From Desulfovibrio ferrophilus (GTDB lineage: Bacteria; Desulfobacterota; Desulfovibrionia; Desulfovibrionales; Desulfovibrionaceae), in the NCBI RefSeq assembly GCF_003966735.1, contig NZ_AP017378.1:2872905-2936904 (forward strand): a stretch of 64,000 nucleotides of DNA. The letters run 5' to 3'. Below the pieces are notes generated by a model. The model saw only the letters and a list, made by a program, of their open reading frames with translations, ran no database searches and was not told where the DNA came from. Shown piece by piece: positions 15,582-52,145 of this stretch (its first letter is position 1; each line of letters begins with the position of its first letter). The position numbers were made by a program, and so were the translations under genes.

Positions 15582-15661
15582 AACATGCCCATCAACACCC
15601 TGCTCCATCATAAGCTTAACCATTGTGCTGCAAGGTCCGATAGCCATTCGTCCTAACTGAC

Positions 15662-15757
15662 AGGGGGGAGGGTGGAGTCCAGAGGAGGTTCCGGGGGGAG
15701 AGGTCGCTTTGCGACCGTCCACCCACATCTCCTCTGGTCCGAGCGAAGCGGACACCT
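15662..15757 (+). repeat. P2B structured repeat, copy 1
   Basis: Begins GGGGGGAGGGTGGAGTCC. It contains CCAGAGGAGGT, then the small hairpin GGTCGC-TTT-GCGACC, then ATCTCCTCTGG pairing back to the first arm, and ends with the mini-hairpin GTCCGAGCGAAGCGGAC. Related copies are at 26406, 31441, 36657 (reversed) and 39031. Confidence 0.7.
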
Positions 15758-15939
15758 GCGGTAGCGCCCCCATCGCGAATCCGCGAGAGCGGGTAACTAG
15801 CGAGTCACGCGAAGCAGGACACCTTCATAAAGACCTCCATCGCCTACCCGCGCAGGCGGCCCCAGCCCACTTTCACAAATTGCCCCAATACGACCTGATC
15901 ACCCCCCCCATCACTCTTGCAAAGCACTGAAAATGCTCA

Positions 15940-16024
15940 GCTGGTGGCGTTGTTTCAGCACAAACAAACCCTCGCGTATTAAACATATACGCTTCGGTCT
16001 TGTTTGCATTTCACGCCTAGCCAA
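15940..16024 (-). repeat. P1 palindromic element, copy a
   Basis: The core reads CTCGCGTATT-AAACAT-ATACGCTTCGG, flanked by CAAACAAAC / TTGTTTG pairing. Outer arms GCTGGTGGCG / CGCCTAGCC are short and imperfect. It lies downstream of the flagellar operon terminator. Confidence 0.65.
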
Positions 16025-16070
16025 CAAAAATTTTGAACACTTTGCAGAAGAACATTCGCCAAAAACACGG

Positions 16071-25550: not shown

Positions 25551-25673
25551 AAGGGCATTGAAATTCCCGCGATGGCGGTGTTGCTGCGGCAAAACCAAAC
25601 TCTCGCGTATTATTCATACGCATCGATCTTGGTTTACCCTTGCGCCTACCCCTCGCGGTTTTTGAACGCCCTT
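25551..25673 (-). repeat. P1 palindromic element, copy b, after topA
   Basis: Outer arms AAGGGCATTGAAATTCCCGCG-like (25551-25571) and its near reverse complement at 25654-25673 enclose the core CTCGCGTATT-ATTC-ATACGCATCG with AAACCAA / TTGGTTT. It begins three bases after the topA stop codon and could act as its terminator. Confidence 0.75.
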
Positions 25674-26326: not shown

Positions 26327-26405
26327 CGCGGGGAACAATCAGGGAGAAGAAAGTTAAGCGAAATCTAGACCTGATGCGGCCTGATAGGCATTCCAACCAA
26401 ACTCA

Positions 26406-26500
26406 AGGGGGGAGGGCGGAGTCCAGAGGGTGTTCCGGGGGGAAAGCGAGCTTTGCTCGCGCCCCCCACACACCCTTTGGTCCGAGCGAAGCGGACACCT
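26406..26500 (+). repeat. P2B structured repeat, copy 2
   Basis: Same order as copy 1: GGGGGGAGGGCGGAGTCC, then CCAGAGGGTGT, the inner hairpin GCGAGC-TTT-GCTCGC, ACACCCTTTGG and GTCCGAGCGAAGCGGAC. Both the inner stem and the long stem differ from copy 1 yet remain paired. Confidence 0.7.
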
Positions 26501-31358: not shown

Positions 31359-31440
31359 CAGCAAGCAAGAACACCCCCTGCTACAATCGAGTCAAAACCC
31401 TTATCCCACATGGCCTGATAAGCAACCGTCATCGACTCAA

Positions 31441-31517
31441 GGGGGGAGGGCGGAGTCCAGAGAGGGTTCCGGTCCAATGCGCCCCCCAACCTCCTCTGAT
31501 CACGCCGAAGGCGAGCA
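31441..31517 (+). repeat. P2B structured repeat, copy 3 (shortened)
   Basis: GGGGGGAGGGCGGAGTCC and CCAGAGAGGGT pair with ACCTCCTCTG-like sequence, but the inner GNTCGC hairpin is deleted. Confidence 0.6.
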
Positions 31518-36656: not shown

Positions 36657-36900
36657 TGGAGATGCCTCAAGGCGTCCGCCTTCAGCGGGACCAGAGAAGG
36701 TTGGGGGGGAGATGGCCGCAAAGCCTCCGGCATCCGCAATACGTTCCAAAACTGGACTGGCCCGGCGCGAGGCAAGCTCAAGCTCGAGGGATAGTCGATC
36801 TATCCGAGAGTTTGAACGACCCGAAGCAACACCATCAGTACGGGAATTGGGACGTATTGCACCGGAACCTCCTCTGAACTTCGCCGCCCTCCCCCCTGGA
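36657..36900 (-). repeat. P2B structured repeat, copy 4, interrupted by a P1 element
   Basis: Read on the minus strand, GGGGGGAGGGCGGCG and CAGAGGAGGTTCCGG (36900-36862) are followed, after an intervening P1 copy, by AACCTTCTCTGGTCCCGC...CGGACGCC (36690-36657). The two halves of P2B are therefore separated by the P1 palindrome at 36733-36864. Confidence 0.55.
36733..36864 (+). repeat. P1 palindromic element, copy f
   Basis: Outer arms CGCAATACGTTCCAA-like / TTGGGACGTATTGC. The core is TCGAGGGATAG-TCGAT-CTATCCGAGAG, in which the stem bases differ from other copies but still pair. It sits inside a P2B copy. Confidence 0.65.
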
Positions 36901-37185: not shown

Positions 37186-37307
37186 AGGGGCGTTCAAAAA
37201 TCACGCTGGCACGGCGCTTCGTTGCTTTCAAGCCGCAGCATAGTAAACCTATGTGAGGATTTGAAAGTGACGGAGCAACAAAGTCAGCGGGAGAGTTTCA
37301 ACGCCCC
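37186..37307 (+). repeat. P1 palindromic element, copy e
   Basis: Arms AGGGGCGTTCAAAAATCACGCTG-like and its near reverse complement at 37284-37307. The core is CCGCAGCATAGT-AAA-CCTATGTGAGG. It ends 13 bp before the start of the deacetylase-family gene, so it lies in that gene's leader. The rest of 36606-37319 shows no gene. Confidence 0.65.
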
Positions 37308-38639: not shown

Positions 38640-39030
38640 GGCAGGCTGCCCGGAACAATCATTCCTCATCACGCTTGCCACCAGCCCTCTCTGAACTTCC
38701 GTAATTCAAGAATCATCTCAAGATTCTTCATACAATCTAAGGACAATCATCTGCGCATCGTCGATTGCCGGGGCGGACCATGACCGCCCCACAGCAAACG
38801 ACAGCGCAGCCTCAATCCTTCTCTCACAGGTCACTCAACCTTCCTCAACTCCCCAATCAAGTATCCGCCTACTCAATCCCGCCACCTCGTCGGGGCATTG
38901 GGCGTGATGAGAGCGGATTACAGCCGCCCGAGATGAACGCCTAGCCCCGGCTATGAGGTTGTCGCCACCCTGTTGCTGATGCTGCAAAACCACCAGCCAC
39001 CAAGGCCTGAAAGGCCACATCAACAACTAT
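38640..39030. other. Intergenic region with P2A-type hairpins
   Basis: No gene is supported. At 38773-38793 the hairpin GGGGCGG-ACCATGA-CCGCCCC resembles the P2A inner stem, and a fuller P2A copy lies at 38887-38953. Confidence 0.5.
38887..38953 (+). repeat. P2A hairpin element, copy 5
   Basis: Starts CGTCGGGGCATTGGG, inner hairpin GAGCGG-ATTACAG-CCGCCC, ends CTAGCCCCGG. It retains the framework but not the GGACCA loop. Confidence 0.6.
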
Positions 39031-39125
39031 CGGGGGGAGGGGAGGAGTCCAGAGGAGGTTCCGGGGGGAAAGGGAGCAACGCGACCGTCCACCCACACCT
39101 CCTCTGGTTCCGCCGAAGGCGATCA
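39031..39125 (+). repeat. P2B structured repeat, copy 5
   Basis: GGGGGGAGGGGAGGAGTCC, CCAGAGGAGGT...ACCTCCTCTGG (perfect 11-base stem), and a final hairpin TTCCGCCGAAGGCGA in place of TCCGAGCGAAGCGGA. Confidence 0.7.
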
Positions 39126-39190: not shown

Positions 39191-39320
39191 TCGGCGGTGC
39201 GCTCCAAAACCGGGCTGAGCAGGCGCAAAAGGCGACCAAGCCCGACGCGTATTCAAATACGCGAGGATTTGAGTCGGCTTGAAGAAACGAACTCAGCGCG
39301 GGAATTGGGGCGTACCGCCC
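39191..39320 (+). repeat. P1 palindromic element, copy g, at the HD-GYP gene end
   Basis: Left arm TCGGCGGTGCGCTCCAAAACC-like pairs with GGGAATTGGGGCGTACCGCCC-like, which ends three bases from the stop codon of the HD-GYP gene. A second arm segment GGGCTGAG / CTCAGCGC also pairs. The core GACGCGTATT-CAA-ATACGCGAGG is near perfect. Confidence 0.75.
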
Positions 39321-41667: not shown

Positions 41668-42657
41668 ATGAATACCGATTATAATACTTATAAAGACCTC
41701 GCTTCCGCGCTTGGCGTCTCTGTTCCCACCATCAAAAGCTGGCGTCGGAAGTTCCCCGCAAGCCTGCCCCTCTTGAGCCGGGGCAAGCCCCTGCGCTTCG
41801 CACCCGAAGCTCTGGAGGCCTGCCGAATCATTCGTGATGGCTACAGCAAAGGGCTCTCGTCCGCTGAAATTCGAGAGTTGCTTGAAGAAACCCTGCCCTG
41901 GACGGGCCGAAGCGCAGCACAGCTGCCCACAGGCGCGGACAGCGAAACCCTGACCGAACTGACCCGTAGCGTACATGAATTGCTGCAAACCCAACGCCGC
42001 ACTGCCGACCGACTTGAACGGCTTGAGCAACGCCTGGGCCAACAATTGGGTCAAATGCATGGGCACCCCAAGCTGCTGGAAGAGTTGCGCGCCCTGAAAC
42101 GGCAGAACGGACAGACAGCCTCCAACCCCGCTGAACAACCATTCCCTGACACTCTCCGAGAACAGACTGCACAGCCATCAAAGGCCACAGCCGAGACCAA
42201 CCAGAAATCGGATACGCCTCCGAGCATTGAATTGCAGAAGCCATCCCTCGAGCGCCCCCAGCGCGTGGTGCGCATCCGCACCCGATCCGGGGAATACGAG
42301 CGCTATGCCCTGCAACCATTGGGACCGGAACCAAAACCTGGTGCACGCCCAGTGCCTGCCGAAGATTTTCTGGAACTGCCCGTGGTCACGCAAAACGCTC
42401 AGGGCGAATATCTCGGAGTGCCGGGACTGACCGTTGGGATGCTAGCCGCACGCCTTGGTCCCGGTGGCGACTGGATCCAGCGCGGAGGACTTTGGCTACT
42501 CACAGTGCAGACCCTGCCCGCACAAACCCTGACCCTGACCCCCACGGTCACACCACGCGGCAACAACGTCGCCGCCCTGACACGGCTGGCCACGCCCACT
42601 ACCGAACTTGGCGACGAAGCGCGCATCGCGTTCCTGCGCGGCCTGCGCAGGGGGTAA
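41668..42657 (+). CDS. HTH-domain protein of unknown function
   Basis: About 329 residues. An N-terminal helix-turn-helix of MerR-like type (YKDLASALGVSVPTIKSWRRKFP, about 8-30) is followed by helices typical of a winged MerR fold, a coiled coil (about 105-145), a disordered Pro/Gln-rich linker, and a C-terminal region (about 210-329) with no family I know. It looks like a DNA-binding regulator. An ATG 18 codons upstream at 41614 is an alternative start; neither has a strong site. Confidence 0.7.
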   Translation: MNTDYNTYKDLASALGVSVPTIKSWRRKFPASLPLLSRGKPLRFAPEALEACRIIRDGYSKGLSSAEIRELLEETLPWTGRSAAQLPTGADSETLTELTRSVHELLQTQRRTADRLERLEQRLGQQLGQMHGHPKLLEELRALKRQNGQTASNPAEQPFPDTLREQTAQPSKATAETNQKSDTPPSIELQKPSLERPQRVVRIRTRSGEYERYALQPLGPEPKPGARPVPAEDFLELPVVTQNAQGEYLGVPGLTVGMLAARLGPGGDWIQRGGLWLLTVQTLPAQTLTLTPTVTPRGNNVAALTRLATPTTELGDEARIAFLRGLRRG

Positions 42658-42861
42658 CCGGAGTCGATCCAACCAAAGATAGCCGCCGCAACTTGCGGAC
42701 ATCAACCGTCACACTCCTGGCTTCTACTCAAGAAGTTCGGCCCCATTCATGACCCCACCAAACCTGCACCCATGGCAAACAGTCAAATTCTTGCATGGAA
42801 ACTGCAATCCGTGCATATTTATTTTGAGCATTGATCACCCTCGCCAAGGAGTGTCTGCGCC

Positions 42862-43263
42862 ATGCCAACAATCATCTGGAACGACCTGCTGGCTACAGGA
42901 GAGCCCAAGATTGACCACCAGCACATGAGTCTGATCGGAATCATCAATGATTTTACGGAGGCCATGAAAGCCGGAAAAGGAGCGGAGGTGATTGACGAAT
43001 GCCTGCGTGGGCTACGCGACTACGCTGACACCCACTTCGAATGCGAAGAGGCCTACATGGCGCGCATCCATTTCCCCCACCTTGAAGACCACAAACGGGA
43101 ACACCAACGGCTGCTTGCCGAGATTGAGGGACGCCTGGACGAACTCCTGAACAGGCAGCCTCCCGCCCGTGAGGTTCACGTCTTTCTCAAGACCTGGTTG
43201 GTGGACCATATCCTCGGCTGGGACTTCAATATCATTCAGCATGCAAAGGAAACGAGAGAATAG
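42862..43263 (+). CDS. Bacteriohemerythrin
   Basis: 133 residues, the standard single-domain length. The di-iron ligands all appear present: His21 (DHQH), His58 and Glu62 (HFECEE), His77 and His81 (HKREH), His116 and Asp121 (HILGWD). It binds O2 reversibly and may store, deliver or detoxify oxygen in an otherwise anaerobic cell. It stands alone with its own leader. Confidence 0.92.
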   Translation: MPTIIWNDLLATGEPKIDHQHMSLIGIINDFTEAMKAGKGAEVIDECLRGLRDYADTHFECEEAYMARIHFPHLEDHKREHQRLLAEIEGRLDELLNRQPPAREVHVFLKTWLVDHILGWDFNIIQHAKETRE

Positions 43264-43284
43264 CGTCGCATCCACAAGGTGAAC

Positions 43285-43370
43285 CATCAAGTCATACGGA
43301 TAAATGGCGCGAGACTATCACCTGATATCTATGTGGATTTGAATCACGCGAAGCAACAAAGTATACGACA
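43285..43370 (+). repeat. P1 palindromic element, copy h1 (degenerate)
   Basis: Contains GGCGCGAGA, CTATGTGGATTTGAATCACGCGAAGCAACAAAG and short GTCATAC / GTATACGAC arms. It is the first of three tandem P1 copies that fill the whole gap 43264-43635. Confidence 0.5.
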
Positions 43371-43389
43371 GCCCAAGGCGTGAAGCAGA

Positions 43390-43506
43390 TCGCTCAAAAA
43401 GGATTGAATACAAGGCACGAGAGGGCTTAAAGATCGACGCATATAAGAACATATGCAAGATTTTGAAGAACGAGAAGTAACGCCGCAGACACCCCTTTTT
43501 CAGCGA
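43390..43506 (+). repeat. P1 palindromic element, copy h2
   Basis: Arms TCGCTCAAAAAGG / CCCCTTTTTCAGCGA. The core is GACGCATAT-AAGAAC-ATATGCAAG, followed by AGTAACGCCGCAGA. Confidence 0.65.
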
Positions 43507-43521
43507 CACACCACTAGCCTT

Positions 43522-43651
43522 GCAAATCGCTTAAAAGGGGTCGGATACGCGGCGCAAGCGTGATCCAAGGCCGACGCATAGTGAGCGCTATGCGAGGATT
43601 TGAATCATGCGAAGCAACAAAGTAGACGACTCGTTCTAAGCGATTTGCATG
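43522..43651 (+). repeat. P1 palindromic element, copy h3, overlapping the thiF-like gene end
   Basis: Left arm GCAAATCGCTTA is an exact reverse complement of TAAGCGATTTGC, which contains the last codons and stop of the thiF-like gene on the minus strand; weaker pairing continues inward for about 15 more bases. The core GACGCATAG-TGAG-CGCTATGCGAGG is typical. Confidence 0.75.
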
Positions 43652-44484
43652 GTTTCGAAGGTCATGTCGACGAGATCGAAGACAAGCATCTTCCCCGCCA
43701 GCACCGGCTTATCTCCACCCAATATGCGCAGGGCCTCGGCGCATTGCAGATTGGCGGCTATGGCCACGGCCGGGGCAGGGCTGCCCAGGGTGTCCTCGGC
43801 GGCGGCGCCAGTGCCAATCAGGGCTGTGGGACCTGCTTCACCGGGCAATACTGTGGCGACATACCCGGAATGGCCGGCAATGGCCGCCGTGACCAGTGGC
43901 ACTCCGGCTCCTGTGGCCGCCCGCGCCAAGGCCGGACGGTCGTCCAATCCACCCAGGGCATCCACCACGATATCGGCACCCGTCAGGATGGATTCCATGG
44001 CCCGCTCGTCCCAAAAGACCTGCTCGGCGTGCAGCTCCACTGCGGGGTTGATCTGTGCAGCGCGCTCCAACGCGGCCTGAGCCTTGGGTTGCCCCAGAGT
44101 CGCAGCAGACGACAACAACTGGCGATTCAGATTGCTCTGCTCGAACGAGTCCCCATCCGCGGCAGCAATCCGCCCCACGCCCATGCGACACAGAGTGTCC
44201 AGCACGTGGCCCCCAAGGCCACCCAGCCCTACCACCACGGCCCGGCTGCGCAGCAGGCGCGCCTGCTGCGGCATGGAATGGGCATTCAGGTTGCGCGCAT
44301 AGCGCTCGGGCACGATCCCGGCATCCAGACACAGGGCCTGAATCTCACGCAGGGGCAGACCCAGCTCGCTGGCCAGCACCTTGCCCACGTCCTCGGGCAG
44401 GCTGCGATACGCGGTCCCATCCGGCCTGCGGGCATCCACGACACGCCCCGCAGCGCGCCGCACAAGCTCCTCTGGTCCAGGCAT
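43636..44484 (-). CDS. ThiF/MoeB/HesA-family adenylyltransferase
   Basis: 282 residues. An N-terminal extension of about 80 residues precedes the E1-like Rossmann domain: VVVGLGGLGGHVLDTLCRMGVGRI, then DGDSFEQSNLNRQ with the ATP-contacting Arg/Gln. The two CxxC zinc pairs of MoeB are absent. It should adenylate the C-terminal glycine of the MoaD-like protein encoded 2 bp upstream, in a molybdenum/tungsten cofactor or other sulfur-transfer pathway. Its last codons form one arm of a P1 palindrome. Confidence 0.87.
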   Translation of the reverse strand: MPGPEELVRRAAGRVVDARRPDGTAYRSLPEDVGKVLASELGLPLREIQALCLDAGIVPERYARNLNAHSMPQQARLLRSRAVVVGLGGLGGHVLDTLCRMGVGRIAAADGDSFEQSNLNRQLLSSAATLGQPKAQAALERAAQINPAVELHAEQVFWDERAMESILTGADIVVDALGGLDDRPALARAATGAGVPLVTAAIAGHSGYVATVLPGEAGPTALIGTGAAAEDTLGSPAPAVAIAANLQCAEALRILGGDKPVLAGKMLVFDLVDMTFETMQIA

Positions 44485-44486
44485 GA

Positions 44487-44714
44487 TCAGCCCCCGCCCA
44501 CGGCGGGGAACAGGCCCACCCGGTCACCCGGGGCAATGACCACCTCGGGCGCGCTGTGCTTCCCGTTCAAAAAGATGATCTTCACCTCTGCGGGGTCGAT
44601 GCCAAGGACATCGATCAGCTCGGCAATGGTGGCCCCATCCTTGGCTTCATAGCCATCGGAAACCTCGGGCTGGAACTTGGCCAGTGTGGCAAAACATTTC
44701 ACGTCGATTTTCAT
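44487..44714 (-). CDS. MoaD/ThiS-family sulfur carrier protein
   Basis: 75 residues with a beta-grasp pattern and a C-terminal VGGG tail whose terminal glycine would be adenylated and thiocarboxylated. It is paired with the ThiF-like gene 2 bp downstream. In related bacteria such pairs often accompany tungsten aldehyde:ferredoxin oxidoreductase, but none is adjacent here. The pathway is therefore uncertain. Confidence 0.87.
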   Translation of the reverse strand: MKIDVKCFATLAKFQPEVSDGYEAKDGATIAELIDVLGIDPAEVKIIFLNGKHSAPEVVIAPGDRVGLFPAVGGG

Positions 44715-44785
44715 GATCTTACTGTCTCAAAAATCACCTGCCCTGAAAAGCACGTGATTCCTGCCATTGAAAACAAGTAGAACGA

Positions 44786-44806
44786 AAATATATTGACAAT
44801 ATATTT
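44786..44806. promoter_or_regulatory. Perfect 21-bp palindrome containing a -35-like TTGACA
   Basis: AAATATATTG and CAATATATTT flank a single A. TTGACA (44793-44798) lies inside it and a TAGAAA-like -10 follows 18 bases on. It sits between the divergent MoaD-like and Lrp-family genes and is a good candidate operator, perhaps for the Lrp-family protein itself. Confidence 0.6.
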
Positions 44807-44880
44807 CTCGTTTAGATAGAAATAGACATTGGTTTTTTCAAATTAGATAATTTAGGCCGACAACCTCACTAGGACAAGGC

Positions 44881-45375
44881 ATGAAAAAGAACCAACTCCT
44901 CGACCTCAGCACCCAGGACAGCAAGCTCCTCTCGGTGCTTGCCGAAGACGGCCAGCTCTCTGCTGGCAAAGTTTCCGAACGCCTGGGCGTGACCAGCCCC
45001 ACCGTACGCACCCGCATGAAAAACCTGATCAGCGCCGGAGTCCTGAAGATCGTCGGGCTTGTTGACCCCTTTAAGGTCAAAGGTCTGGAGATCGCTCTGG
45101 TGGGCATCAACGTCCAGACCCACAGCAAGATGGACGACATGATGGAACGCATCGCGGATCTGGACCGGGTCAACTGGGTGGCCGTGGTCACGGGCCGCTA
45201 CGACATCGTGGCCGAAGTCGTGCTGACTCAGGGCACCGACGACCTCTATACATTCATCAATGAAGACCTCTCCGACATGGGCGGAGTCAGTTCCTCGGAA
45301 TCCTTTGTGGTCATGAAGGCCAAACGCAAATGGGTTCCGCTGCCCAGCGCTGTGCGCGAGCATTTGTTCAAATAG
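44881..45375 (+). CDS. Lrp/AsnC-family transcription regulator
   Basis: 164 residues. The N-terminal winged HTH (LLSVLAEDGQLSAGKVSERLGVTSPTVRTRMKNLISAGVLKIVGLVDP, about 15-62) is followed by the RAM ligand-binding domain (from about 70; VNWVAVVTGRYDIVAEVVL is its core). It probably senses an amino acid and, by position, regulates the alanine dehydrogenase gene 85 bp downstream. AGGA lies upstream of the ATG. Confidence 0.9.
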   Translation: MKKNQLLDLSTQDSKLLSVLAEDGQLSAGKVSERLGVTSPTVRTRMKNLISAGVLKIVGLVDPFKVKGLEIALVGINVQTHSKMDDMMERIADLDRVNWVAVVTGRYDIVAEVVLTQGTDDLYTFINEDLSDMGGVSSSESFVVMKAKRKWVPLPSAVREHLFK

Positions 45376-45460
45376 CCGTCAACGGCGGCCGGGGCGTGCC
45401 CCAAGTCGTAAAACGTAGTATACTTTTTCTTAAAAAATTCAGAAGAGCGAGGATGCAGCC

Positions 45461-46564
45461 ATGATTATCGGAGTCCCCAAAGAAATCAAAACTCTGGAAA
45501 ACCGTGTTGCCATGACCCCCGGTGGCGCAGAAACCCTGGTCCGCCGCGGCCACGAAGTACTGATCGAGGCCGGTGCCGGCCTGGGCAGCGGCCTGAAGGA
45601 CGAGGAATACACCGCAGCCGGTGCCAAGCTCGTCTCCCGCGAAGAGGCCTGGGGCGCCGAAATGGTGGTCAAGGTCAAGGAACCCATTGCCGAGGAATAC
45701 GGATTCCTGCGCAAGGATCTGCTGCTGTTTACCTACCTGCACCTGGCCGCTGAGGATGCCCTGACCAAGGCCCTGCTGGGCGCCGGTACCACCTCCGTTG
45801 CCTACGAGACCGTGCAGCTGCCCGACGGCTCCCTGCCGCTTCTGACCCCCATGTCCGAGGTTGCAGGCCGCATGGCCACCCAGGAAGGCGCACGCTTCCT
45901 GGAAAAACCCCAGGGTGGACGCGGCGTACTGCTGGGTGGCGTTCCCGGTGTGGCCCCTGCCTCCGTGGTTGTGCTGGGCGCTGGCGTGGTCGGTACCAAT
46001 GCCGCCAAAATGGCCATGGGCCTTGGCGCACAGGTCACCATGATCGATATCAATCACCGTCGCCTGCAGTACCTGGACGATGTCTTTGCCGGCCGCATCA
46101 TGACCATCACCTCCACCGAGCCCAACATCCGCAAGGCCGTGGCCTACGCCGACCTCCTGGTGGGCGCGGTGCTCATCCCCGGTGCCAAGGCCCCCAAGCT
46201 GGTCACCGCCGACATGATCAAGACCATGAAGGAAGGTTCCGTGGTCGTGGACGTTGCCATTGACCAGGGCGGTTGCATCGAGACCATCAAGCCCACCACC
46301 CACAAGGACCCCACCTATGTGGTGGATGGCGTTGTGCACTACGGCGTGACCAACATGCCCGGCGCTGTGCCCCGCACCTCGACTTTTGCCCTGACCAACC
46401 AGACTCTGCCCTACGCCATCAAGCTGGCAGACAAGGGCGTGGACGCCCTGAAACTTGACGGCGCTCTGCTGCGCGGCCTGAGCACCAAGGACGGCGTCCT
46501 GACCTGTCCGGCCGTGGGCGAGGCCCTGGGCATCGACAGCATTACCCCGGAACAGGCCCTCTAA
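45461..46564 (+). CDS. ald: Alanine dehydrogenase
   Basis: 367 residues. IGVPKEIKTLENRVAMTPGG opens the protein. VVLGAGVVGTNAAKMAMGLGAQVTMIDI (about 168-195) is the NAD-binding fold, and VDVAIDQGGCIET and NMPGAVPRTST are diagnostic. It interconverts alanine with pyruvate and ammonia. GAGGATGCAGCC precedes the ATG. TATACT at 45419-45424 is a possible -10, without a good -35, consistent with activation by the adjacent Lrp-type regulator. A strong terminator follows. Confidence 0.95.
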   Translation: MIIGVPKEIKTLENRVAMTPGGAETLVRRGHEVLIEAGAGLGSGLKDEEYTAAGAKLVSREEAWGAEMVVKVKEPIAEEYGFLRKDLLLFTYLHLAAEDALTKALLGAGTTSVAYETVQLPDGSLPLLTPMSEVAGRMATQEGARFLEKPQGGRGVLLGGVPGVAPASVVVLGAGVVGTNAAKMAMGLGAQVTMIDINHRRLQYLDDVFAGRIMTITSTEPNIRKAVAYADLLVGAVLIPGAKAPKLVTADMIKTMKEGSVVVDVAIDQGGCIETIKPTTHKDPTYVVDGVVHYGVTNMPGAVPRTSTFALTNQTLPYAIKLADKGVDALKLDGALLRGLSTKDGVLTCPAVGEALGIDSITPEQAL

Positions 46565-46591
46565 AGCCTGCCCCGGTTTTCCACACTCCTG

Positions 46592-46624
46592 CCCCCGTCT
46601 TCAACGTGAAGACGGGGGTTTTTC
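46592..46624 (+). terminator. Intrinsic terminator of ald
   Basis: CCCCCGTCTTC / GAAGACGGGGG stem followed by TTTTTCC, 28 bp after the ald stop. Confidence 0.93.
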
Positions 46625-46734
46625 CTTTTGCGGTCCAATCTCCGGGCTCAGCCAATACTCTTTTCTCGCAAAACTGTTTTCCTCGGGCTCAACTTCCTAT
46701 ACAAATGGGGTTATTCATCAAGGGAGTCTGAACC

Positions 46735-47844
46735 ATGGGAAATCTCGTACTCATTGGCGGCGGCCACGCCCACGCTGGCGTGCTGTTCGATATCGGCAAG
46801 ATCGTGGAGCAGGGGCACAAGGTCACCCTCATCAACCCCACCCCGCAGCATTATTACTCGGGCATGGGCCCCGGTGTGCTGGGCGGTGCTTACAGCCCCA
46901 AGGAAATCCGCTTTCCGGTCAAGGCCATGGTCACGGCCCGGGGCGGCACGTTCATCGAGGACCGCATGGTCTCCGTGGATGCGAACACCCGCACCGTGCA
47001 TCTGGCCTCCGGGGACAGCGTGAACTATGACGTGCTGTCCTTCAACGCGGGCAGCGTGATCCCCACCCCCGAGGACAGCGCCGAACAGAGCAAGGACGTG
47101 TTCACGGTCAAACCCATCCAGAACCTGTGGATCGGGCGCGAACGCATCGAGGAACTTCTGGCCAAGGGGCCTGTGCGTGTGGCCGTGGTGGGTGGTGGTC
47201 CCGCAGCTCTGGAGGTTGCCGGGAACGCCCGTTCCGTAAGGGTTGATAACCGAATCCCCGAAGTCACAGTCTTTGCCGGAAAGAAATTCCTGCGCAACCT
47301 GCCCGAACGCATCCGGGGCATGGTTCTGGGCAACTTCGCCAAACGCGGCATCAAGGTTCTGGAGTCCGGTTACGCCCAAAAGACAGAGACCGGAAAGGTG
47401 ATCCTGCAATCAGGCGAAGAGCATGAAACCGACGTCATCTTCCTGGCGCTGGGCGTTCGCCCACCAACCCTGTTTGCGGACAGCAATCTGCCCACCGGCC
47501 CCGATGGCGGCCTTACTGTAAACCGCTCCCTGCAATGCGTGGATCATCCCGAAATCTTCGGCGGGGGTGACTGCATCCACTTCGCGGATCAGCCTCTGGA
47601 CAAGGTCGGGGTCTATGCCGTGCGTCAGCACCCGGTGCTGGTCCACAACCTTGCCGCGCAACTGGAAGGGCGGGAGCTGATTCCCTTTGATACAGGGGGC
47701 AAGTACCTGCTGGTCTTCAACCTGGGTGACGGCACCGGCATCTTCGTCAAATGGGGGCTTGTCTTTGGTGGAAAGCCGGCCTTCTGGATCAAGGATTACA
47801 TTGACCGCAAGTTCATGAGTCTCTTTGACGCCGACAATGGCTAG
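46735..47844 (+). CDS. FAD-dependent pyridine nucleotide-disulfide oxidoreductase, SelD-associated type
   Basis: 369 residues. The FAD loop is LIGGGHAHAGVL at 5-16, and the second dinucleotide fold is VAVVGGGPAALEVAG near 149. The GGGHAH loop and overall layout match the NDH-2-like domain that in many organisms is fused to or encoded beside selenophosphate synthetase. IFGGGDCIHF near 275 is the FAD-ribityl motif. No selD is nearby. The electron acceptor is unknown; a membrane quinone is possible. A P1 palindrome starts at its stop codon. Confidence 0.82.
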   Translation: MGNLVLIGGGHAHAGVLFDIGKIVEQGHKVTLINPTPQHYYSGMGPGVLGGAYSPKEIRFPVKAMVTARGGTFIEDRMVSVDANTRTVHLASGDSVNYDVLSFNAGSVIPTPEDSAEQSKDVFTVKPIQNLWIGRERIEELLAKGPVRVAVVGGGPAALEVAGNARSVRVDNRIPEVTVFAGKKFLRNLPERIRGMVLGNFAKRGIKVLESGYAQKTETGKVILQSGEEHETDVIFLALGVRPPTLFADSNLPTGPDGGLTVNRSLQCVDHPEIFGGGDCIHFADQPLDKVGVYAVRQHPVLVHNLAAQLEGRELIPFDTGGKYLLVFNLGDGTGIFVKWGLVFGGKPAFWIKDYIDRKFMSLFDADNG

Positions 47845-47963
47845 CGGCCCAAAAGGGCACATCTGCTTCGTTCCTGCGAAAACGCCAAACCCTCACGTAC
47901 CTGGAGTACGCATCGGTCTTGGCGTTTTCTTGCGCCTCGCATCTGTGCCCTTTTGGACCGCTA
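47843..47963 (-). repeat. P1 palindromic element, copy c, at the oxidoreductase stop
   Basis: Arms AGCGGCCCAAAAGGGCACA / TGTGCCCTTTTGGACCGCT pair at 18 of 19 positions; the left arm begins at the TAG stop codon. The core CTCACGTAC-CTGGA-GTACGCATCGG is flanked by AACGCCAAA / TTGGCGTT. Confidence 0.8.
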
Positions 47964-47983
47964 TCAGCACTAGACTATCCCAC

Positions 47984-48028
47984 TATTGAAAACAGGTATT
48001 ACCGCACCGTTTCAAATATCTTAAAGGA
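47984..48028 (+). repeat. Direct repeat, left copy
   Basis: Begins TATTGAAAACAGGTATTACC. A second copy at 48123-48163 matches most positions over about 40 bases. The two bracket P1 copy d. Confidence 0.65.
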
Positions 48029-48100
48029 GCCAAACTCACGTACGTGGAGTACGCAGCGATCTTGATGGTTCCTTACGCCTTGCACCTGCATTCCTTTGAA
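48011..48100 (-). repeat. P1 palindromic element, copy d
   Basis: Arms TTCAAATATCTTAAAGGA and TCCTTTGAA pair with a bulge. The core is CTCACGTACG-TGG-AGTACGCAGCG. It follows copy c in tandem and lies between two direct repeats. Confidence 0.65.
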
Positions 48101-48122
48101 GCCGTTAGAGACTCGGTCGCTT

Positions 48123-48163
48123 TATTGAAAACAGATATTGCCGCACGGTCTCAAACGCCTTTA
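48123..48163 (+). repeat. Direct repeat, right copy
   Basis: Begins TATTGAAAACAGATATTGCC; partner of the repeat at 47984. The gap 47845-48295 contains only these repeats and no supported gene. Confidence 0.65.
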
Positions 48164-48295
48164 ATCCCCCTCAGCACAAATCAATATTCAAAGGCGCTGC
48201 ATGCCCCACCAGACTTGACAAACCGGGTTGGGGTGAGCATCCCTCTTTGCAGTCCGGTTGTTTGTTTCCGGGCACAGTTTCCGGAGCCACCACCC

Positions 48296-49003
48296 ATGCG
48301 CCATATCCTTTCCCTACTCATCCTTGCACTATGCGTGCTATACGCTTCCGCACCGGCTCAGGCCTTCAGCGGCCAATCCGTTCGCCTGATGTACGAGGAA
48401 CGGACCGGGGATGTGACAAGCACCAAGGAATATCTGGTGGAGAAGACACCCAGTGGCTACCGCATCGTGCTCTTCAATCAGGGCATCAAGCGCGTCATCG
48501 TGACCGATGACGACCTGGACACACAGGTCGAGGACTTTGACAACCCCGCCACTGGAGATCATTTGACCTTCCGACGTGAAGACGGCGGACTGCGACTGAC
48601 GGGAACACTGGACAACAAGCCCATGGACAAGAGCTTTGAAGCTGACGGGCTGTGGTATGGATCGGTGCTCCTGTTGCGGGATGCTGTGCTGGCAGGGAAG
48701 GAAAAAAGCGCATTCATCGTGACCAAACCCGAGGAAGAGCGGGTGATCACCCTTGTGGCGATTCGACAGGAGACCGAGACTCTGATGATTGGCGGAAAGC
48801 CCTGCGAGACCGTAAAATACAAATACACGGTACCGGGGTTTCAGGGCCTGTTCTGGAAATCCTATTACTGGTACCGCACCTCGGACGGACTCCTGGTCAA
48901 GACCGAGGAGACCCGCGGCATGCCGGGCACCGCCAAGGTCTATTCGGAACTTAAGGCCGAGGCAGTGCTGCCCCAGATGCCTGCCGTGGCTCAATTGCCA
49001 TAA
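48296..49003 (+). CDS. Secreted protein of unknown function (DUF3108-like)
   Basis: 235 residues. A signal peptide (about 1-23, ending AQA) is followed by an all-beta-like mature part with alternating charged and hydrophobic residues. GGKPCETVKYKYTVPGFQGLFWKSYYWYRTSDGLLVKTEE near the end recalls DUF3108-type periplasmic proteins, though the match is by pattern only. The ATG at 48296 has GGAG nine bases upstream; an in-frame start at 48044 lies inside a repeat and is rejected. Confidence 0.75.
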   Translation: MRHILSLLILALCVLYASAPAQAFSGQSVRLMYEERTGDVTSTKEYLVEKTPSGYRIVLFNQGIKRVIVTDDDLDTQVEDFDNPATGDHLTFRREDGGLRLTGTLDNKPMDKSFEADGLWYGSVLLLRDAVLAGKEKSAFIVTKPEEERVITLVAIRQETETLMIGGKPCETVKYKYTVPGFQGLFWKSYYWYRTSDGLLVKTEETRGMPGTAKVYSELKAEAVLPQMPAVAQLP

Positions 49004-51998: not shown

Positions 51999-52145
51999 GT
52001 CCGAGATCGTGGTCAACAGTGGGGAGATGCCAGGCGCAAAAACGGCCCCGGCTCGAAGCGTATCCACACATACGTGAGAGTCGGGGGACGCTTGCAGTAA
52101 CGCCGCAGATGCCCGCTGCTCATCACGGCGGTCAGCGATCCGACC
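51999..52145 (+). repeat. P1 palindromic element, copy i, at the methyltransferase gene end
   Basis: Core AAGCGTAT-CCACAC-ATACGTGAG with CCCCGGCTC / GAGTCGGGG and GGCGCAAA upstream. The right arm runs through the stop and last codons of the RNA methyltransferase gene; the left arm at 51999-52031 is a loose match to it. Confidence 0.6.

Follow-up and report, generated by a model that had tools for sequence, protein, structure and literature searches.

A dispersed palindromic element behind stop codons in Desulfovibrio ferrophilus, one copy of which has an outer arm that coincides with the end of a ThiF-family gene

The ERIC and NEMIS repeats carry a target duplication around TA, a trait that recurs in the element described below. 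REP elements measure 20-40 nt, and Liang and others reportedly found in 2015 that REP near stop codons affects translation. The palindromic element described here, which we analysed in a window of 64,000 nucleotides of the D. ferrophilus genome, resembles the REP/BIME sequences with their RAYT transposase in being an extragenic palindrome behind stop codons; in contrast to these, it is ~125 nt long, its presence does not track Y1_Tnp matches, and it shows target duplications in a related genome (G031). With ERIC, NEMIS/Correia, Ype and Efa it shares a long imperfect hairpin, a high copy number and a non-autonomous nature, and with Ype and Efa also the clustering at the 3' ends of genes, as far as the available parts of the descriptions go (PMC1590033, PMC2229807). 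It comes from an unrelated host group and is set apart from these four by description: its outer arms vary copy by copy and stay complementary, its distance to the stop codon is sharp, and the duplication in G031 is one of 4 bp of the type NTAN. Coding palindromes are described for the mitochondria of Nematomorpha in the available part of PMC6649704; there, as in the copy studied here (h3), a perfect inverted repeat has a protein-coding arm, but both arms code, over up to 284 bp, whereas in h3 one arm of ~12 nt codes.

Both stem-loops and families of repeats have been described at the 3' ends of genes (available part of PMC1590033). No published description of the element was recognised in the searched literature, which had most subscription journals outside its reach. 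The parts of two Geobacter genome papers within the search report other multicopy families, some of them palindromic, and a match in their supplements, which lay outside it, is possible. The family appears to be new; its kind, the palindromic intergenic repeat, was already known.

The initial annotation had described the left arm of h3 as an exact reverse complement of the end of a thiF-like gene, with looser pairing continuing inward, and direct reading of the letters confirmed both statements. The arms GCAAATCGCTTA (43522-43533) and TAAGCGATTTGC (43637-43648) are exact reverse complements of each other, and the minus strand of the latter region reads ..ATG CAA ATC GCT TAG, the end of the ORF at 43636-44484. 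The gene-proximal arm also supplies the final sense codons of this ThiF-family gene and most of its stop codon (Table 1). Pairing goes on inward with mismatches (GACCCCTTTTAAGC.. / GACTCGTTCTAAGC..), and outward 3/4 bases pair. The arm score of h3, taken over two 24-nt flanks outside the core, is 14 and the highest of all 132 copies in its own genome. It was reached by 0/131 other proximal arms, 0/131 other distal arms and 0/5000 dinucleotide shuffles; a chance match is ruled out by these swaps and shuffles, and the predicted excess of arm pairing over shuffled controls holds.

Table 1. Features of the h3 locus and further copies of the element in the window.
Feature	Position	Strand	Basis
Distal outer arm of h3, GCAAATCGCTTA	43522..43533	+	Direct reading; score above 131 swaps and 5000 shuffles
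Core (101 nt) of palindromic element copy h3	43535..43635	+	R1 match, 100.2 bits, partly by construction (h3 in the source alignment of R1)
Gene-proximal outer arm of h3	43637..43648		Exact reverse complement of 43522-43533
ThiF-family gene	43636..44484	-	PF00899, E 3.7e-46; C-terminus ..TFETMQIA*; stop codon 43636-43638
ThiS-family gene, same strand as thiF and upstream of it	44487..44714	-	PF02597, E 6.2e-10
Hemerythrin-domain gene, convergent with thiF	42862..43263	+	PF01814, E 1.9e-11
Second element copy, head to tail with h3	43398..43498	+	61.7 bits
Weak third copy, possibly degraded	43290..43374	+	16.7 bits, E 0.041
Element copy	47853..47952	-	89.6 bits
Element copy	25563..25662	-	84.2 bits
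Element copy, also in the training alignment	37197..37296	+	72.7 bits
Element copy	52017..52118	+	66.7 bits
Element copy	15932..16033	-	63.8 bits
Element copy	39206..39305	+	63.7 bits
Element copy	36748..36847	+	59.6 bits

First copies of the element were collected from the own genome (G000) by BLAST and by pattern matching, and a model (R1) was built from an alignment (A1) of eleven copies, h3 included, in whose fold 24/32 pairs had changed on both sides. Searches with R1 revealed at least 132 matches at E <= 0.1 in the own genome (among the 150 scored of 1071 candidates) and at least 132 at E <= 1e-6 in a genome of the same genus, G001 (among the 150 scored of more than 1000 candidates), three of which were dropped to leave 129 usable copies. 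The anatomy is a palindromic core of ~101 nt with outer arms of ~12 nt each. A fitted alignment of 118 copies (A2), drawn from 57 of 59 own stretches (L145 and L159 were left out), gave a covariation score of 0.627, compared with 0.235 for shuffles and no more than 0.114 for slid controls, with pairing inflated by the fitting to the model structure. Further afield, R1 matched at E <= 0.01 in 21/39 genomes and, under strict filters, at E <= 1e-6 in 32/297 genomes of a phylum set, mostly with less than 60 bits (own genome included in both counts). Strict element patterns had no match in genome contigs or viral contigs, and a pattern derived from G031 matched 26 stretches, by title 15 from Desulfonatronum, 9 from "Desulfovibrionales bacterium" and 2 from Desulfonatronovibrio. 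The element is present in the genus and among further Desulfovibrionales-like relatives, with weaker matches in other members of the phylum.

Within the window R1 gave 12 matches at E <= 10, nine of them with at least 59 bits. Two additional matches, one of them weak, share the spacer between the convergent genes with h3, in head-to-tail order (43290-43498). A search at the Rfam gathering score gave 0 matches in the window, by which a known Rfam RNA is ruled out there as the identity of the element. A second dispersed repeat family with the motif GGGGGGAGGG..GGAGTCCAGAGG..TTCCGGGGGG was seen at 15655-15748, 26399-26492, 31435-31472 and 39025-39118, and a stretch resembling it sits downstream of thiF in G001.

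Gene calls from a purpose-written codon-score script revealed a close association of the element with stop codons. A gene runs into the element from the same side in 114/132 own copies and 107/129 copies in G001, and stop and core are 8-20 nt apart in 76/132 and 72/129, respectively, with 12 nt as the commonest distance (26 own copies, 23 in G001). The own copies include 45 between convergent genes and 1/132 between divergent genes, and 89 own gene ends have an element at most 30 nt away. The stops of the 76 adjacent own genes are 44 TAG, 21 TAA and 11 TGA; over all called genes the counts are 204, 152 and 106. In 11/132 own copies, h3 among them, and 6/129 in G001 the gene overlaps the element, with the stop inside the core or at most 2 nt from it. 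Loci from other searches showed a stop 10-19 nt from the core in 17 of the 33 counted, on the right side in 7 and on the left in 10, so that there the element is less consistently oriented relative to the gene; the underlying 35 loci (one of insufficient length and one without a gene call were left out of the count) are not independent, as some share a genome and two come from G001, and the codon scores were trained on the own genome. The sense strand of the host gene is the leading strand for 102/132 copies and 67/89 host genes, versus 279/482 genes called in this DNA, with coarse replichore borders, one of them within the window. GC skew sign and element strand both switch at 0.97-1.13 Mb of G000:C1 and near 2.94 Mb. 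These switch points are likely the replication origin and terminus, and the window adjoins one of them.

Pairing between the flanks is limited to offsets 0 to ~12 from the core (132 own and 128 G001 copies). In the own genome it amounts to 0.49-0.80 at offsets 0-11, 0.36 at 12 and 0.25 at 13, compared with 0.41-0.57 and then 0.25 in the swapped control. Mean arm scores were 7.18 in the own genome (swapped 4.14, shuffled 4.13) and 8.22 in G001 (swapped 4.57, shuffled 4.19). At the 76 stop-adjacent own copies the bases from core to stop pair at 0.56-0.78 and those of the stop codon at 0.37, 0.33 and 0.24. The sense codons remain at background, with 0.19-0.33 in these copies and 0.18-0.35 in 71 copies of G001, and gene ends outside the element are therefore not mirrored. 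In h3, too, the mirrored segment stops at the family's own arm boundary. Overlap copies scored 8.18 versus 7.92 for stop-adjacent ones in the own genome and 9.5 versus 9.12 in G001, and copies without a near stop scored lower (5.69 and 6.78). In the 11 own overlap copies, whose stop is in or at the margin of the core, the arm is hence coding; they scored 5 to 17 including 8 nt of core and 3 to 14 outside it, four of them at most 6 (swapped mean 4.05). As a general rule the element, not the gene end, sets the arm, and the overlapping genes end inside the repeat.

Orthologous gene ends retain the element in both species. At least 60 of the 89 own gene ends have a reciprocal-best orthologue in G001 that also carries it (median identity 88%), in a comparison that covered G001 DNA around its element copies and so counts retention, not loss. 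Arm scores were 7.88 and 9.42 within and 6.03 and 6.30 across species; the within-species sum was higher in 43/60 pairs, tied in 14 and lower in 3, and in 25/60 both within-species scores exceeded both cross-species scores. The similarity of proximal arms between orthologous copies correlated with that of distal arms (0.55), and the two arms tend to differ together between the two species. The idea that the arm tracks the gene end across orthologues, raised in the initial annotation, holds in part: distal arms tend to match the proximal arm of their own species, but among the seven orthologous pairs that include an overlap copy this is clear in two or three, the rest being weak, mixed or the same. 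Co-change is seen at 3327743 (9 and 11 within, 7 and 7 across) and 3382077 (12 and 13 within, 6 and 5 across); 3387483 fits it as well (9 and 7 versus 4 and 3), with the G001 stop 27 nt off. The state at 2245751 is identical in both species, and 2418550, 2236189 and 794821 are weak or mixed. In the G001 orthologue of 3382077 the proximal arm that matches is a duplicate of the gene end that no longer codes, with the stop 39 nt away. Near 217505 of G001:C11 (L380), a tandem duplication of ~39 nt takes in the end of a gene with a methyltransferase domain together with the element's first part, and the distal arm pairs well with the second duplication unit and the junction. The thiF gene of G001 has an identical end, followed by what by eye appears to be an element remnant without the distal arm.

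For the thiF sense strand of 43505-43665, RNA folding gives -59.7 kcal/mol (z -4.7) and places the stop codon in the outer stem, a prediction by which the thiF mRNA could, as initially proposed, fold the 3' end of its coding sequence onto the element. A more stable fold is predicted for the opposite strand (-72.1, z -8.0). On the forward strand of the element, which is opposite to the gene, G-U pairs outnumber A-C pairs 378 to 141 over all 32 pairs and 69 to 28 and 40 to 25 in the arms. The balance is 65 to 57 in the long helix without column pair 49-154, 59 to 68 at arm offsets 5-12 and 42 to 23 at offsets 5-10; a small number of column pairs accounts for part of the excess, and R1 favours the forward strand of the element. 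The strand signal of the imperfect pairs is mixed and does not favour the gene's own mRNA. A hairpin selected in that mRNA would be expected to show the reverse, and the G-U excess on the opposite strand counts against it. For the 45 copies in convergent spacers, the strand opposite the host gene is the transcript of the other gene.

As raw counts without shuffle control, TTTT stands at the distal boundary on the gene's strand in 71/132 own and 73/129 G001 copies, and at the proximal boundary on the other strand in 51/132 own copies. In following the stop, in being more frequent in convergent than in divergent spacers, and in the distal T-run of these copies with its proximal A-run counterpart, the element is similar to the 3'-end stem-loops with complementary A- and U-runs (available part of PMC1590033). 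It differs in being far longer, in its conserved motifs around internal loops and in forming a repeated sequence family. A simple terminator scan, confined to loops of 3-8 nt, made no call at h3 and found 5 sites in 42000-48500 versus a shuffle mean of 6.8. From the position after the stop, the near absence from divergent spacers, the T-runs and the orthologous retention, we infer a role as a two-way transcription terminator or 3'-end hairpin.

Recent mobility was found in the relative G031, where 12 of 15 testable copies (20 fetched) have identical 4-bp flanks of the NTAN type, such as GTAA, CTAA, CTAG and ATAG, and thirteen of twenty share the same core by eye. These near-identical copies with 4-bp target duplications make the element MITE-like. 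Their ends CTGAGTGTTGAAAAA.. and ..TTTTTCAACGGACTG contain GTTGAAAAA in corresponding places as an imperfect repeat (by eye). A left-end pattern had 24 matches in G031, and no transposon with the element's ends was recognised in ~240 nt at eight of them or in the ORFs of two. Near 2813896 (L340) and 2825509 (L341) of G031:C1, element copies appear to interrupt RAYT-like genes near the start and at similar places; a Y1_Tnp match adjoins the copy in L341, and the interruption in L340 is by eye only. Copies apparently inside RAYT-like genes suggest that element and RAYT are not a partner pair.

That the copies are REP elements mobilised by a RAYT (Y1) transposase is highly improbable. Target duplications are not expected of HUH enzymes and are present in G031, and G004, G009, G010, G014, G021, G022 and G023, with 63, 36, 41, 18, 11, 9 and 9 matches of the element, lacked any Y1_Tnp match at E <= 1e-5 (not all of these genomes are complete). 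The abundance of extragenic palindromes in each genome and one Y1_Tnp match in the own genome would fit such an origin, but it was rejected as Y1_Tnp matches do not follow element counts. A templated inverted duplication, by which each distal arm would be a reverse copy of the gene's 3' coding end, had been suggested as the source of the arm; as a general origin it was not borne out, the sense codons of the 76 and 71 stop-adjacent copies being unmirrored, and we consider it quite unlikely. It could account for the coding bases in the arm of h3 and 10 other own copies, but mirroring halts at the element's own arm boundary, and four of the 11 overlap copies score close to swapped arms outside the core. 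A local case that would fit gene-to-arm copying is 3382077, where the arms match within but not across species, the mirrored segment holds the codon for the Lys of a G-x-K end, and the matched arm in G001 is the duplicated gene end. This Lys is common to G001 and 3/11 further homologues (..GTKS*, ..GIKKHVT*, ..GKKK*), and no element was seen by eye in the inspected stretch of the homologues with Lys. The C-terminus of ThiF likewise aligns with those of homologues in which no element was noticed by eye (..FETVTL*, ..WERMEIG*), and its QIA may be native. The converse, that thiF lost its native stop and its frame now ends in the element arm with QIA derived from the element, is possible but doubtful. 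Set in register with the family arm CAGGCTGTTGAA, CAAATCGCTTAG is equal at 6/12 bases (by eye), and some overlap copies use as their stop the TGA within a GTTGAA-like motif. The product of 3327743 (..AVCSLGR*) has same-family homologues in G004 and G013 that are two residues shorter (..AVCPA*, ..AVCGS*), but others are equally long or longer, and this variation in length counts against such an extension and slightly in favour of duplication. The identical thiF end in G001 also speaks against the extension, and ThiF is just one residue longer than many homologues, with similar residue types (a further end is ..FTPVRL*; of 30 loci compared, eight lacked an end and at least one was in the wrong frame). 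By its letters, ..FETMQIA* may be native or arm-derived.

Probably, h3 is one copy of a dispersed palindromic element whose build resembles that of MITE-derived repeats such as ERIC, NEMIS and Ype, and its distal arm matches the gene end since the family keeps its arms matched. The element would have entered, or been retained, directly behind stop codons, its outer arms being kept complementary copy by copy through compensatory change and/or template-switch homogenisation. At most stop-adjacent copies the stop codon stands just outside the gene-proximal arm, and at the 11/132 own and 6/129 G001 overlap copies, thiF included, the reading frame ends within it. There the arm has to be coding and palindromic together, and the match of the distal arm would come from family-wide arm matching, not from a duplication of the gene end. 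Replication template switching, in the form of quasi-palindrome correction, is somewhat unlikely to be the main force that maintains pairing while the hairpin is under little selection; the protein would then fix one arm at overlap copies and the switch rewrite the other. The correlated divergence of orthologous arms and the balance of G-U and A-C in the long helix are consistent with it. The available part of PMC8794818 describes template switching as fixing stems, an upkeep known for RNA genes, and that of PMC8604942 describes it as introducing multi-base changes into coding repeats. Placement behind stops and orthologue retention fit selection better, however, and the overall excess of G-U over A-C suggests either a degree of selection on the forward strand or a bias of the model; this excess counts against the family-wide arm matching as well as against template switching. 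Template switching and selection can act together.

With the copy h3 read as a member of the dispersed family, an apparent coincidence becomes a rule: the arm is part of an element that has its outer edge on stop codons. The element offers candidate 3'-end signals for many genes, none of them marked by Rfam in the window. With more than 100 copies per genome in two relatives, many at orthologous gene ends and with coding as well as non-coding arms, the family suits the study of how long-stem complementarity persists while both sides change. It is unlikely that the arms are repeatedly rewritten by replication template switching, the distal arm being a running reverse copy of the last codons where a gene ends inside the element; if this were true, the two species with their ~260 copies would provide a natural archive in which homogenisation by mutation could be told apart from selection acting on RNA structure.
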